DNA of 45,604 bases from positions 1 to 45,604 of the IMG/VR virus record IMGVR_UViG_3300022821_000007. One strand, 5' to 3'. The stretch is from a virus. Below, one piece after another: positions 29,877 to 45,604 of the stretch. Position numbers and translations under genes: made by a program. The notes under the pieces are model-generated. The model was given only the letters and a program-made list of their open reading frames with translations. It was not told where the DNA came from and made no database searches. Position 1 is the first letter of the stretch. Each line of letters opens with the position of its first letter.

Positions 29877-29886
29877 AGTAATTTAG

Positions 29887-29977
29887 GGGGAATGAACAAA
29901 TGAAGTATTGCTTAGTTTCAAATGAGTCGGAACCCACTTGCCCTATACGAGAACTCCAAGTAGCTTGCTCATTCCCC
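29887..29977 (-). ncRNA. Cloverleaf-like structured element
   Basis: On the leftward strand the 9-bp closing stem GGGGAATGA/TCATTCCCC encloses three hairpins: CAAG-CTA-CTTG, a 7-bp stem (with two G-U pairs) closing the loop TTCCGA, and a weaker AAG/CTT hairpin. The size (91 nt) and layout recall a tRNA, but the D and T arms and anticodon loop do not fit the consensus, so I do not call a tRNA. It begins 4 bases after the stop of the gene at 29982. Confidence 0.5.
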
Positions 29978-29981
29978 GTGA

Positions 29982-33421: not shown

Positions 33422-34193
33422 GTTATATATTATTAAGGACGTAATATTTATTTTATTCCTTTGTATAATATATTATATATAATGCGAGAGAGAATATATA
33501 GGATATATTTATATTATATTATTATTTAATGAACTTTATGTTTTGATTGAGTGTAATTATATTATATACCATTTCTCATGATTTGTAAATGATTATAATT
33601 GAAGCGTATATAACCTATAACATTACACAAGAATACAAGTTATTAACATCTCTCACTTATCTCAATCTTATTATTTATATTATTATTTAAGATTTAATAT
33701 ACCTACCTGTTAACAACTCATTCTTTGTTGTAACGTTACACTGTATATATACTATACTATACCTTACTTTACTATACTATACTATACTCTCATACTATCT
33801 ATACTCTTATAGCGTAGTAGTTATATACTATTTACATATTGTATGATATATGATATACTATATATATACATACATACTAACATACTATACAATACTATAC
33901 ATACAACGACGTAGTCGTAGTTATTTTGTGTAATTATAGCAATATATATTTCAGAATGCTATGTATATCTCACTCATTACACTCTCATTCTCACTTTACA
34001 ACTCATCATTCGTATTCGAGCTTAAAAGTATCTCTTTCAAATTATCTATCTAGTAGTAGATAAATCTAGAAATGAAAGATGATGTAAGATAAATCGTAAA
34101 AGAAAGTAAGTTGTGAGAATTTCGTAAAGTAAAGAAAGATGTAAGATATTGAGAATAAGAAAGTATTCGTAAGCTACTAATTAATATAATGAT
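33422..34193. promoter_or_regulatory. Divergent A/T-rich region: early promoters and candidate origin
   Basis: 772 bp without a gene, between the first genes of the two arms. It holds tandem ACTAT/TATAC units (33751-33812 and 33850-33905), TGTTAACAACTC (33708-33719) and GTTACACTG (about 33732), which are the reverse complement of words at 30.39-30.57 kb; a palindrome ACGAC-GTA-GTCGT near 33905; and a hairpin TTATCTA/TAGATAA (34042-34063). Promoters for both arms must lie here, and the repeats make it the best candidate origin. No DnaA-box consensus was seen. Confidence 0.45.
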
Positions 34194-34442
34194 ATGAGTT
34201 TTAAAAAGATATTAGAAAAATCAAACGAAGATCAAATGGAATTCGGTAGAGTAGATACCAATAAAGTACTGAAAGATATACTAGAAGAATTAGCAAGAAA
34301 AGAAACTGCATTAAATAATGATCGACTATGGAAACAGATCACTTATAATAAGATGCAGAATACTGATACGATCGAGTTACCTACTTTGTACAAGATCTTA
34401 GTAGAGTATAAAATAATCAATAGTGAAAAAGATGGGATGTAA
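34194..34442 (+). CDS. 82-residue hypothetical protein, first gene of the rightward arm
   Basis: A charged, helical protein (MSFKKILEKSNEDQMEFGRV, then DILEELARKETALNNDRLWK) ending DGM. No family is recognised. It precedes the structured RNA and the packaging genes in the same direction. The leader is TTAATATAATGAT, without a Shine-Dalgarno. Confidence 0.5.
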   Translation: MSFKKILEKSNEDQMEFGRVDTNKVLKDILEELARKETALNNDRLWKQITYNKMQNTDTIELPTLYKILVEYKIINSEKDGM

Positions 34443-34457
34443 TAATTAATATAATAC

Positions 34458-34567
34458 AATTTAGGTTCTTTATTCCTCGAGGAAGTTTAGCGTATTTGGC
34501 TACTTCTCGAGTAGGACTCTATAAGTTATGACTCTTATACTTGCTCGAGGAGTTAAGGATCTAAATT
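34458..34567 (+). ncRNA. 110-nt three-way-junction RNA ahead of the packaging operon
   Basis: AATTTAGGTTCTTTATTCCT plus CGAG (34458-34481) pairs with 34544-34567 over 24 positions, with three G-U pairs and one mismatch. Inside are two hairpins: GAAGT(TT)AGC/GCT-ACTTC (34482-34506) and TATAAG/CTTATA (34520-34539). TCGAG occurs three times at the junctions. The RNA would lie 15 bases upstream of the next gene. Candidates are a leader regulator, a processing site or an independent small RNA. Confidence 0.55.
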
Positions 34568-34582
34568 GAAAAAGCTAAACGT

Positions 34583-35029
34583 ATGACACAGCCAAACAAA
34601 AGTCAAGGTCCTAAGATTACTAGGATCGACAAGCATGGAACAACTTTACCACCAGGAGTTCAATTCGGTGAAGCAAAAGATTTATCGAACTTAGCTGCTA
34701 AGAAAGTTAATAACGAAGCAGCAGCAGCTGAACTAGAAGAAAAGAAAAGAGGTAAAGAAAGGATGGAGCATATAATTAATGAGTTAGAAGTTATAGTAAG
34801 AGTTAACAGACTATCGTTAGCAGAAGCTTCTCATATCTTTCAGTTCTTTATTAATTTCTACATGAATAAAAGCAAAGAAGAGTATTTATTCAAAAGAGAT
34901 GTTAGATCTGATGAAGTAAAAGATAATCTTCATAAGAACCGTAAAAAGATTATGGGTTATATGAGAGATGCTATAGCTCAGGAAGAGAAGGAAGCATTAG
35001 CTAATAAAGATAAAGAACTTAAGAAATAA
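34583..35029 (+). CDS. Hypothetical protein upstream of the terminase
   Basis: 148 residues, helical and charged. A polar N-terminus (MTQPNKSQGPKITRIDKHGT) leads to a Glu/Lys coiled segment (about 50-70) and a helical C-terminus ending KDKELKK. No family is recognised. Position (structured RNA, this gene, another unknown, then TerS/TerL) suggests a head or packaging accessory. Confidence 0.5.
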   Translation: MTQPNKSQGPKITRIDKHGTTLPPGVQFGEAKDLSNLAAKKVNNEAAAAELEEKKRGKERMEHIINELEVIVRVNRLSLAEASHIFQFFINFYMNKSKEEYLFKRDVRSDEVKDNLHKNRKKIMGYMRDAIAQEEKEALANKDKELKK

Positions 35030-35033
35030 GAAT

Positions 35034-35435
35034 ATGATTGACCAAAGACTAGAAGAGTTCAAAGTCTTCTCAGTTCGTTTCGCTGCTCTATTAGAGAATG
35101 ATGCAAAGATCGATACTTTGATAATGGTTAACGCATATACATTGGAAGAAGCTTTAGAAAAGATCGAGAAACGATTAGAAGAAGGTTATGAGTTGAAGAT
35201 AAAAAGATTTGGAGTAATTGAATATTGCTATAAGAAGTTATCTCAGTTACATAAGTCAATAGCTGATAAAGAATTTCTAAATGATATTGAGAAAGAAAAG
35301 ATAGCTAAGAATTATTTGATGAACATATTCATAGAGAACGAGAAGATGACACTTAAGAAAGTATTCACATCTTCTGAATTAAAATTATTAAATGATAAAA
35401 TATCAAATGAACAAGTCCAAAAAACAATCAAATAA
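35034..35435 (+). CDS. Hypothetical protein upstream of the terminase
   Basis: 133 residues, mostly helical (RLEEFKVFSVRFAALLENDA, then EALEKIEKRLEEGYELKIKR). No family is recognised. It overlaps the start of the small-terminase gene and follows its neighbour by 4 bases, so all three are one operon. Confidence 0.5.
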   Translation: MIDQRLEEFKVFSVRFAALLENDAKIDTLIMVNAYTLEEALEKIEKRLEEGYELKIKRFGVIEYCYKKLSQLHKSIADKEFLNDIEKEKIAKNYLMNIFIENEKMTLKKVFTSSELKLLNDKISNEQVQKTIK

Positions 35436-35982
35436 AGAACAAGCAAGTAGGCAAGCTTCTCGTAGAAAGGAAACTAAGAACGAAGAGCTTGAAGCAGAAG
35501 CCCAAGAAATATTAGGTGACCCTGCTAAATATGAGAAAGCTACTTCAGCTATGTTCAAAGCTTTACTACCAAAAGTAAAGAGAGGTCCTAAAATAAAAGA
35601 TCTTGATCAACTGTTAACTGATAAGCAATGGAGAAAGACTTCTTTAGCAATGGCAGCAGAAGGATGCTCGATGTTAGAGATCATGCTAGCTATTGGAATG
35701 AATCCTAACAGGCATTATAAATTACTGAAAGAAAATACTCCTAGAGGTAAGAAGTATAAGATAACAATGAAACTAGCAGAGAAACTCTGTGAAGCTTGGT
35801 GGTTAAAGATTGGACGAAAAGGTTTAACTATGAAATCAAACTTTAATTCGCATTTATACTATATGAATATGAAGAATAGATTTGGATGGAGAGAGAAACA
35901 AGAAACAGAATTTGGAAAAGAGACTCTCGCAGTAATAGAAGACTCGATGCAGAAAATAGCGAAAGGAAGTAGAAGAACATGA
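35407..35982 (+). CDS. terS: Terminase small subunit
   Basis: 191 residues from the ATG at 35407 (an ATG at 35392 adds five residues). A basic, disordered N-terminus is followed by a helix-turn-helix (GCSMLEIMLAIGMNPNRHYK, about residues 82-103), then the segment KSNFNSHLYYMNMKNRFGWREK (about 146-167), a pattern common in small terminase subunits. It recognises phage DNA and loads the motor. The gene is directly upstream of, and overlaps (ATGA) with, the large subunit. Confidence 0.8.
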   Translation: MNKSKKQSNKEQASRQASRRKETKNEELEAEAQEILGDPAKYEKATSAMFKALLPKVKRGPKIKDLDQLLTDKQWRKTSLAMAAEGCSMLEIMLAIGMNPNRHYKLLKENTPRGKKYKITMKLAEKLCEAWWLKIGRKGLTMKSNFNSHLYYMNMKNRFGWREKQETEFGKETLAVIEDSMQKIAKGSRRT

Positions 35983-37616
35983 TTACAAATAAAGAAATAG
36001 AAAATTTACCAGGAAGATCAGATTTCTTATACCCGAGATTCGATTTCAATATCTATGATGGTAAGATGGTTATCAATCATTCTGCCAAAGATTTGAAAAG
36101 GATACTCGCTTATGAGATGGAGAAATGCAAAGAGGATGATGTCTGGAAATTAGCTAATCAGAATTTTGTTGACGATCACGAAGAACCATTCGAACTCACA
36201 CCAGCTCAGTTAGAAATATTCAAATGTATTTATTACAGAGACTTTGATAGAGTTCATATCGTTTCTAGTACACAGTATGGAAAGACATTAAACATTGCAT
36301 CTGCTTTGTTAGCTAGAATCTCAAGTCATCCTGAAGATTGGTTAGTCACTGTTCCAGATTTAAAGAGAGGTAGAAATCTTTTGAAGTATATGATTAATGC
36401 TACTTCTAAGAATGAATACTTCAAACGTAAGTTAATCGGTGTTAAAGATAAAGATCATTCAGCAATGAACAGATTACTAGAAGAGAAATCTAAAATTAAA
36501 TTAACATATCAAATTTTAGGGAAAGACGATAACATTCCAAGATATGGTTCAGTTGAACTTATAACTTGTGAAGCTCATAGAACACAAGATGCTATCGAAA
36601 GCATTATGGGCTTTGGAGGAAGAAATGTTATCTCAGATGAGAGTTCGTTAATATCAGATGAGATTGAAGCAGGTATCTTTAGGATGTTTGCTGGGAAGGG
36701 TAAAGATACTTGTTATATCAAGATTGGCAATCCTTTCCATAGAAATCATTTCTACAAGAGCTTCGTTAGCAAGAGATACAAGAAAATATTTATTAAGAAA
36801 GAGATAGGATTAGCAGACGGAAGATACACTCCTGAGTTTATTGAAGAAGCAATGGAGAAACCTAAATCAGAGATTCTTTATGATTGTGAATATCCACCAG
36901 AAGACGCAGAAGACGCAGATGGTTGGTCTAAACTATTATTAGGAGAAGACGTTAAGAGAGCTATTCTTCCTGAGATAAAGTTAATCGGCCCAATAAGATT
37001 AGGAGTTGATTGTGCAGGAGGTGGAAAGAACCAATCAGTCATAGTTGCTCGAGGTATTAATGGAGCTAGAGTTTTATGGCAATCAAGAACTAGAGATACA
37101 ATGAAGATAGCAGAAGCAGTATATGACTTTGCTATAATGCTAGAAGTAGATCCTAAAGAGATCTTTATTGATATGGTTGGATTAGGAAGAGGAGCTTCAG
37201 ATAGGCTAGCTCAGCTAATTGGAAGACCATGCGGAGTCAACGTTGGTCAAGCAGCAGACGCTAAAGTACATAAGAAAGAATTTACAAATTTAAGAGCACT
37301 AGCTTTCTGGAGAGTAAGAACCTGGATCTTGCGAGAAGGAAGACTAGAGAAGCATACAGGATGGGAACAACTATCTCATGCTTTATTCTATAAGTTAAAA
37401 AAGAGTAAAGTACAGATGATGCCAAAAGAGACAATGAGAAAGAAAGGAATTGTCTCACCCGATTACGCAGATGCTTTAATGTTAACATTTACAAAGAAAG
37501 ACGAATATTTTGAAACAGGTAAATCTAAAAAGTCGAAAAAAGAAGATGACTTTTTCAAAAATAAAATGAAAAAGAAAAGATTAAGAAACAAATCATTTAG
37601 AACAGTTCAATCATAA
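35979..37616 (+). CDS. terL: Terminase large subunit
   Basis: 545 residues. ATPase: Walker A SSTQYGKT (96-103), Walker B NVISDE (216-221). RNase-H-like nuclease: GVDCAGGG (Asp344), IDMVGLGRG (Asp398) and SPDYADAL (Asp495/Asp498). This is the motor that packages DNA into the prohead and cuts it to length. The terminal tail is Lys-rich. Its family, judged by order of motifs, is of the usual tailed-phage type; headful or cohesive-end cutting cannot be read from sequence alone. TerS overlaps upstream and the portal follows 4 bases after its stop. Confidence 0.93.
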   Translation: MITNKEIENLPGRSDFLYPRFDFNIYDGKMVINHSAKDLKRILAYEMEKCKEDDVWKLANQNFVDDHEEPFELTPAQLEIFKCIYYRDFDRVHIVSSTQYGKTLNIASALLARISSHPEDWLVTVPDLKRGRNLLKYMINATSKNEYFKRKLIGVKDKDHSAMNRLLEEKSKIKLTYQILGKDDNIPRYGSVELITCEAHRTQDAIESIMGFGGRNVISDESSLISDEIEAGIFRMFAGKGKDTCYIKIGNPFHRNHFYKSFVSKRYKKIFIKKEIGLADGRYTPEFIEEAMEKPKSEILYDCEYPPEDAEDADGWSKLLLGEDVKRAILPEIKLIGPIRLGVDCAGGGKNQSVIVARGINGARVLWQSRTRDTMKIAEAVYDFAIMLEVDPKEIFIDMVGLGRGASDRLAQLIGRPCGVNVGQAADAKVHKKEFTNLRALAFWRVRTWILREGRLEKHTGWEQLSHALFYKLKKSKVQMMPKETMRKKGIVSPDYADALMLTFTKKDEYFETGKSKKSKKEDDFFKNKMKKKRLRNKSFRTVQS

Positions 37617-42152: not shown

Positions 42153-42179
42153 AGAGGGAGTGATAATGACACTCCCTCT
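42153..42179 (+). terminator. Strong hairpin after the major capsid gene
   Basis: Perfect 10-bp stem AGAGGGAGTG (42153-42162) and CACTCCCTCT (42170-42179), loop ATAATGA, then CTTATAA. There is little T tract, so partial termination or mRNA stabilisation is likely. It would uncouple abundant capsid message from the tail genes. Confidence 0.7.
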
Positions 42180-42203
42180 CTTATAAACTAAACTTATTTT
42201 ATT

Positions 42204-44213: not shown

Positions 44214-44214
44214 T

Positions 44215-45604
44215 ATGAAGAAAATATTTAACTATGCAATCATTCCTATATTAGCATTGGCTATCGTAGGAATAGTATATGCACAAGCTAGTTCTTTGAT
44301 CTACATCTCTGATGATGGAAATACGAGAATTATAAATCTAGAAGAGAGTGATGTAGCGGGAAGTGGAGGACAGATATATGAACCAACAGCTGTTGATCTT
44401 TCTGATTTAACTTTAGCAGAGAACTCAGTATACAGAGGAGATGCTTCTGATAATCCAGAAGCTACAAGTGATTTAACAATATTGTCAAACGGCAACGTCG
44501 GGATAGGGACAGACACCCCAACCTCTTTATTACACGCAGTCCAAACCTCAACAACAGGAAGCACAGGATATTTTTATAGAAACTTAGCAAGTGCTTCTAC
44601 TGATAGTCCTTTGATGCAGTTAATAAATGACAATGCAGGAGATGACCAGAATGTTCAAACTAATCAAAATGACGGAACAGGTGATACTTTATTTTTAGAC
44701 ACAAACGGTAATACAACTTCATTAAACATAGATAGTGAAGCAACAACAGCTGGTGTCTTTACTTTGGAGTCACTTAATACTTCTGGAAGATTATTATTAG
44801 TTAGAAATTATGGAGCGATGGCTTCAAATGTTTCTAACGCTGTTGCTTCTTTTCAACAAAATTCATCTAGTTCAGGAGGAATTACATTAGAATCTAAGAA
44901 TGCAGGTACAGGAAACACCCAATTCCTAGACACAAACGGAGACGCAATATCTCTAAACATAGACTCCGAATCAACCACTCAGGATATTGTTAATATAGAT
45001 GGAGCCCCATTAACCTCTGGTATAGCACTAGACGTTATAGGTGGTGCAAGTAAAACTGGTACTCTTGGAGTTGCAAGGTTCTTAAATTCTGGTGACGCAA
45101 CCAATGTTTCTATCGACCAAAAGGGTAATGGTATATCTCTAAACATAGACTCCGAAGCAACAACTGCTAATGTAATAACTGTAGGGACTGTAAACACAGA
45201 CAGAGGAGTCAAATTTTTTAGTACTGGAGCATATACAGGTACTACTAACGGTGGTTTTATATTGGCAGAATTAACGAATGCAGCATCTACTCAACCTGTA
45301 TTTTTATCAAGAAATGCTGGAAGTGGTGTAGGATTAAGAATCGACAACAATGGCAATGGCATAGGCTTAGAAATAGACTCCGAAGCAACCTCAGCAACAG
45401 TCCTTAATGTAACAGCAGAAAACACAAGCGGAAACATTATGAATATTGATAGTAAGTTAGTAATGGATTATGAGGGGAATGTAGGAATAAGTACAACTAA
45501 CCCAACTGAACCTTTTACAGTTATTGGAAATAGCCTTTTAAATTCTGTTCTAGTCACAAATGCTGATTCGTCTTTATCTTCTAGCCCATATGTTCTAATA
45601 GCTA
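44215..45604 (+). CDS. Exported repeat-containing surface/tail-fibre protein, N-terminal part (continues at 1-462)
   Basis: The frame is open from ATG 44215 to the window end and continues, in phase, through the terminal repeat to TAA at 460-462: 574 residues in all. A signal peptide is clear (MKKIFNYAIIPILALAIVGI, then VYA). The stem has an NVGIGTDTPTSLLH motif near residue 95 and four copies of a unit with (S)LNIDSEATT (about residues 170, 247, 309, 385), spaced 62-77 residues. Such repeats build trimeric beta-helical fibres. Codons of the first NVGIGT part end more often in C/G than the rest of the genome, suggesting a mosaic origin. Confidence 0.75.
   Translation, partial: MKKIFNYAIIPILALAIVGIVYAQASSLIYISDDGNTRIINLEESDVAGSGGQIYEPTAVDLSDLTLAENSVYRGDASDNPEATSDLTILSNGNVGIGTDTPTSLLHAVQTSTTGSTGYFYRNLASASTDSPLMQLINDNAGDDQNVQTNQNDGTGDTLFLDTNGNTTSLNIDSEATTAGVFTLESLNTSGRLLLVRNYGAMASNVSNAVASFQQNSSSSGGITLESKNAGTGNTQFLDTNGDAISLNIDSESTTQDIVNIDGAPLTSGIALDVIGGASKTGTLGVARFLNSGDATNVSIDQKGNGISLNIDSEATTANVITVGTVNTDRGVKFFSTGAYTGTTNGGFILAELTNAASTQPVFLSRNAGSGVGLRIDNNGNGIGLEIDSEATSATVLNVTAENTSGNIMNIDSKLVMDYEGNVGISTTNPTEPFTVIGNSLLNSVLVTNADSSLSSSPYVLIA
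44722..45400 (+). repeat. Four degenerate (S)LNIDSEATT modules inside the fibre gene
   Basis: TTA/CTA-AAC-ATA-GA(T/C) units begin at 44722, 44953, 45139 and 45367 (the last reads LEIDSEAT). They are 231, 186 and 228 bases apart. Each follows a D.(N/K)G(N) turn, giving a repeat of about 62-77 residues. They share codons (ATAGACTCCGAA in three of four), so unequal recombination could change copy number. Confidence 0.7.
45478..45604. repeat. Right copy of the 127-bp terminal direct repeat
   Basis: Exact copy of bases 1-127. It carries the codons for NVGISTTNPTEPF inside the fibre gene, so the duplicate should be removed when the circle is closed, leaving 45,477 bp. Confidence 0.95.

Follow-up and report, generated by a model that had tools for sequence, protein, structure and literature searches.

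The packaging genes of IMG/VR virus record IMGVR_UViG_3300022821_000007 (positions 1 to 45,604, the whole stretch analysed and hereafter the window) are preceded by a 110-base stretch predicted to fold into a three-armed RNA, which raises the question of whether this RNA is real and, if so, whether it resembles the phi29 packaging RNA or serves as a leader of the operon that follows. Comparison with relatives indicates that it is a real, undescribed RNA element, its fold being preserved by matched mutations in one relative.

A stable branched fold between two genes

The element is non-coding and lies between ORF 34194-34442 and ORF 34583-35029, and, as the original prediction had stated, neither neighbour explains its structure. 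None of 200 dinucleotide shuffles was as stable, and among 110-nt segments of both strands of the whole record (means near -16 kcal/mol) it ranks first in stability at a mere 36-37% GC. The predicted terminal helix enclosing two hairpins agrees with the sequence and fold: in its long form the helix spans 24 positions and is interrupted by a single U.U mismatch, and three of its 23 pairs are G-U (columns 8-103, 10-101 and 16-95). The recurrence of TCGAG at the junctions was likewise borne out, with copies at 34477-34481, 34507-34511 and 34545-34549, each inside CTCGAG. Relatives were found by a large-terminase (TerL) search, which gave L002/L004 (TerL 84% identical) and L003 (TerL 80%). The parts of the element are as follows.

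34458..34567 (+): whole RNA element; fold -41.4 kcal/mol, z -5.8; homologue at L002 1489-1595
34458..34478 (+): P1 helix, 5' arm; 20 pairs and a U.U mismatch at 34471/34554, 20 of 20 pairs kept in L002
34547..34567 (+): P1 helix, 3' arm; same pair conservation as the 5' arm
34476..34481 (+): repeat copy 1, CTCGAG; CCTGGG in L002
34506..34511 (+): repeat copy 2, CTCGAG; CCTGGG in L002
34544..34549 (+): repeat copy 3, CTCGAG; CCTAGG in L002
34479..34508 (+): arm P2; three junction pairs kept, inner pairs not
34509..34546 (+): arm P3; 7-bp helix, conserved ACUC bulge at 34516-34519, AU-rich apical hairpin

Paired changes preserve the fold in a relative

The L002 homologue occupies the same place, with the counterpart of ORF 34583 starting 12 nt after it, and folds far better than its shuffles (-38.5 kcal/mol, z -5.9). 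P1 has kept every pair through five double changes (U-A to C-G, G-C to A-U, C-G to U-A, U-A to C-G and C-G to U-A) and two one-sided changes through G-U, and the lower helix of P3 has kept 7 of 7 pairs through two double and two one-sided changes. When the same substitutions were placed at random, all P1 pairs survived in 133 of 200,000 trials, and all 27 pairs of P1 and P3 in 2 of 200,000. Sliding the partners by 1-3 columns lowered the paired cells from 95% to at most 54%, a contrast that is partly expected because the structure was derived from the sequences compared. The original prediction had named a lack of compensatory changes among relatives as the outcome that would speak against it; this comparison of two sequences, the window element and its L002 homologue, instead gave seven double changes with 27 of 27 pairs kept.

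Some stretches are conserved as sequence. Pairing of the inner P2 hairpin is not conserved, yet UUUGGCU within P2 does not differ between the two phages. The same holds for the ACUC bulge of P3 and for the P1 block UUUAUUCC/GGAGUUAA with its U.U mismatch, amid neighbouring pairs that vary.

Three repeats changed as a set

The element can be drawn as two branch-migration isomers, the 24-position helix and a perfectly paired three-way junction in which P2 and P3 take over the last three pairs of the long helix. Vienna folding favours the long helix by ~2 kcal/mol for the window and the junction by ~1-2 kcal/mol for L002, and such energies cannot decide between the isomers; multibranch loops are poorly predicted by folding programs (PMC5340915). 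All three repeats were altered together in L002. Only copies 1 and 3 pair in the long helix, which would leave copy 2 to drift freely; in the junction form copy 2 is engaged on both sides, its 5' half pairing with the 3' half of copy 1 and its 3' half with the 5' half of copy 3. Moreover, a double change was found at pair 58-83. Because all three repeats changed together and the 58-83 pair exists only in the P3 helix, these changes favour a true three-way junction, and the element may interconvert between the two isomers. That it is an RNA switch between branch isomers working through the three co-evolving repeats or, despite the ordinary TerL, a non-phi29 RNA part of the packaging machinery seems a long shot. 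The junction itself, beyond the long helix, becomes a testable functional part.

The fold belongs to the mRNA strand

The plus strand folds better than the reverse complement by 15 kcal/mol in the window and 7 kcal/mol in L002. G-U pairs are kept on the plus strand at columns 16-95 and 57-84, and five further pairs vary through G-U. The G-U pairs assign the fold to the mRNA strand. An imperfect palindrome near terminase genes could instead point to an element acting as DNA, such as a packaging site, origin or cruciform, or to palindrome repair by chance with no RNA role, the more so as CTCGAG is itself palindromic and template switching can give palindromes paired changes. Template switching would, however, erase the G-U pairs and the U.U mismatch, a cruciform gains nothing from them, and the poorer fold of the reverse complement also stands against this explanation, which we regard as very improbable. 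Conserved and variable G-U pairs together with the conserved mismatch argue for selection on the late-strand transcript, against cruciform or palindrome repair.

The RNA stands at the front of the packaging module

The position ahead of the terminase operon, as first proposed, is supported by the genes that follow, which run in the order 148-aa ORF, 133-aa ORF, ORF in the small-terminase position and TerL. The RNA is located 1.4 kb before TerL, which carries ATPase and nuclease motifs (QYGKT, VISDE, VDCAGGG and DYADAL).

34443..34455 (+): TAATTAATATAAT, promoter-like element directly upstream of the RNA
34583..35029 (+): 148-aa ORF, the first conserved one of the packaging module; homologous ORFs at 47% (L002) and 39% (L003), no PHROG
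35392..35982 (+): ORF in the small-terminase position, 196 aa; assigned by position only
35979..37616 (+): large terminase (TerL), 545 aa; PHROG 2, E 1.4e-20

After a run of unrelated small genes, the DNA homology of the window to L004 resumes exactly at 34456, the 5' edge of the RNA; the RNA is thus the first conserved part of the packaging module and travels with it. Further along, a strong hairpin with a poor U tract directly follows the capsid gene (42155-42185 on the plus strand; 8702-8726 in L004) and may be a terminator, a 3' stabiliser or a processing site. At 44214-45604 (+) an open frame with repeats of the FLDTNG..SLNIDSEATT type, tail-fibre-like, runs off the contig end, the record being incomplete or cut within a gene; a structured stretch at 44739-44848 was dropped as lying inside this frame.

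A TAATTAA/TATAAT element lies immediately upstream of the RNA in both phages. TAATTAATATAAT also occurs exactly at 34178-34190, before ORF 34194, and with at most one mismatch has 7 matches in the window against 0.6 expected; in L002, TTAATTAA stands at 1480-1487, 1 nt before the RNA. The RNA thus starts one or two bases after the TTAATTAA/TATAAT promoter-like element. In the window TAATTAA stands 16-30 nt ahead of start codons 11 times against 1.8 expected, upstream of about ten genes, and may there be a promoter or an initiation signal of the host. Its occurrence before the RNA suggests a transcription rather than a translation signal, because no start codon follows this copy at that distance. 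A search upstream of the element found no -35 box, and the promoter call rests on the motif; RNA made from a TATAAT whose last base is 34455 would usually begin near 34462, within the helix. A hairpin at 1433-1456 of L002, ahead of the RNA, could end an upstream transcript.

On the downstream side, no intrinsic terminator or poly-U tail was seen after P1, and the AUG of the operon's first conserved gene follows P1 by 15 nt in the window and 12 nt in L002. The A-rich start region is mostly unpaired in both phages, and neither isomer hides the start codon. Shine-Dalgarno sequences are missing from most genes of this phage.

The element is confined to one lineage

The RNA is missing before the homologous downstream gene of L003, and a covariance model built here and run with no filters gave no convincing hit in L003 or L015 and did not find the RNA a second time in window 1-34400. 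The gene order is kept and the RNA absent in L011-L014 (nearly one phage) and in L015, and a TerL sub-alignment gave 14 further loci, none with the RNA by the covariance model. Given this absence from the same place in L003 and in more distant relatives of the same gene order, the RNA is lineage-specific, known from two phages, and either young or often lost.

Wider scans gave the same picture. No close relatives other than L002 and L003 came from the TerL, portal-position and capsid scans. When viral contigs were scanned for the pattern of the conserved core, everything except the L002/L004 contig was a chance match; among the core matches rejected, that in L005 falls in a nucleotide-kinase-like gene on the other strand, and those in L008 and L009 have no such fold. 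In genome contigs a first scan was empty and a second gave only a 27-residue partial match on one MAG contig, and the phages collection gave weak AT-rich matches only (E 0.5). A long hairpin of L003 (155-215) and a 21-bp hairpin at the end of the small-terminase-position gene of L015 (2550-2602) were rejected as not homologous to the RNA; the latter, in a more distant relative, is followed by seven T and lies between that gene and TerL.

None of the 4227 Rfam families matched at gathering score, nor did any match appear at E up to 10 for 34380-34620 beyond weak ones far below threshold, the best being plant-type microRNA hairpins; hammerhead and riboswitch readings were dropped for want of a match. 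A literature search found no leader RNA of phage terminase operons. The element is of interest as a structured phage RNA outside every Rfam family, backed by compensatory changes, at the front of a packaging operon.

The window holds a second strongly structured non-coding stretch at 29877-29981 (-), with closing helix 29887-29976 (GGGGAAUGAGCAA...UUGUUCAUUCCCC, -38.1 kcal/mol, z -5 to -6). It likewise stops shortly ahead of an AUG, here by 10 nt; this AUG belongs to the ORF that heads the leftward replication operon, a small CxxC zinc-finger-like one. No Rfam family matched the stretch at gathering score.

A structured leader and its alternatives

Our preferred, though tentative, explanation is that the element forms a structured 5' leader on the packaging (late) operon mRNA and acts in cis as a boundary, stabiliser or processing element, because a conserved mRNA-strand fold follows a promoter-like element, the AUG comes 12-15 nt on and no terminator intervenes. 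Transcription would begin where the closing helix does, or nearby, and the mRNA would thus open with a closed, branched, double-stranded domain, which could shield the long message from decay that depends on the 5' end and separate it from the variable small genes upstream. In a readthrough transcript from upstream, the 20-bp helix would be a double-strand-specific cut site (RNase III type) yielding a fresh 5' end, and the mostly single-stranded A-rich start region would allow ribosome entry. Besides the motif-based promoter call and its expected RNA start inside the helix, two observations count against such a leader: L003 keeps the operon without the RNA, so the role would be dispensable or met otherwise, and a plain stabiliser or cut site needs neither co-varying junction repeats nor conserved loop sequences.

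An alternative is a leader regulator in which the junction, with its conserved bulge and loop, would bind a phage protein (e.g. the small terminase or the first gene product) or a ligand and so exert feedback on the operon. A three-way junction lends itself to specific recognition; the UUUAUUCC/GGAGUUAA block, UUUGGCU and the ACUC bulge stay identical amid varying pairs, and two near-equal isomers using the same three repeats could switch. Short identical stretches in just two sequences are weak evidence, however, and neither isomer hides the start codon or makes a terminator, leaving such a regulator possible but on the unlikely side. A processive antitermination leader like HK022 put, whose nascent RNA would bind RNA polymerase and allow readthrough of late-operon terminators, would suit an element at the start of a long operon with a strong hairpin after the capsid gene in both phages, put itself acting from nascent RNA over at least 10 kb (PMC9378689). 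The poor U tract of that hairpin, the lack of a closing helix around the two stem-loops of put and the finding that terminator-like sites are, within error, not commoner than in shuffles make this rather improbable. We also think it improbable that the element is a separate trans-acting small RNA, including a packaging RNA working like phi29 pRNA. Size, three-armed shape and the position before TerL would suit one, and the P3 loops, self-complementary in both phages, could allow dimers, but the element has no terminator after it, shows no conserved loop-loop complementarity between arms, leaves the Rfam pRNA model unmatched, accompanies an ordinary TerL and does not stand beside the operon of L003 or of relatives further away. 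Among these possible alternatives we rank the protein-binding regulator above the put-type leader and the latter above the trans-acting RNA. The cis-acting leader would offer this uncultured phage, mostly without Shine-Dalgarno sites, a candidate means to set off and protect its late message.

Comparison with known systems

RNase III processing sites and 5' stabilising stem-loops are known from phage mRNAs, as at the T7 early mRNA sites. Like them, the element has a long, near-perfect helix that lies on the mRNA strand ahead of phage genes or between them, and its 20-23 pairs with one mismatch agree with the near-continuous helix of ~20 bp or more expected of such sites; it differs in being branched, with repeats at the junction and loop sequences that are conserved, and its cleavage is putative.

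Like HK022 put, the element is a structured RNA close to where a phage operon transcript begins, and it would act in cis. Put, however, is ~70 nt, consists of two adjacent stem-loops and occurs as two related copies downstream of the early promoters (PMC9378689), whereas the element is one closed three-way junction in a single copy, and we do not count it as a put RNA.

The likeness to phi29 pRNA noted in the original prediction holds for size and shape (a core of ~110-120 nt with a closing helix and three-way junction, near packaging genes) and fails for the Rfam match, the interlocking loops and the phage type. Rfam Phage_pRNA gives no match to the element, even at E up to 10. In phi29 pRNA the loops of two arms interlock (PMC5340915); here the P2 and P3 loops share at most 3 complementary nt in either phage, with no conserved interlocking. 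The pRNA belongs with the gp16-type ATPase of phi29-like phages, to which it is described as unique (PMC11476376), whereas here a PHROG 2 large terminase is encoded in a 45.6-kb incomplete record, and the RNA sits in an operon leader and is absent in close relatives. Because of the ordinary TerL, the lack of conserved interlocking loops and the lack of an Rfam match, a phi29-type pRNA role is unlikely, which does not by itself exclude a role in packaging; the leader regulator or RNase processing site that the original prediction had held at least as likely is the better reading. The element thus provides a clean case for asking whether RNA parts stand beside terminase genes outside the phi29-like phages.
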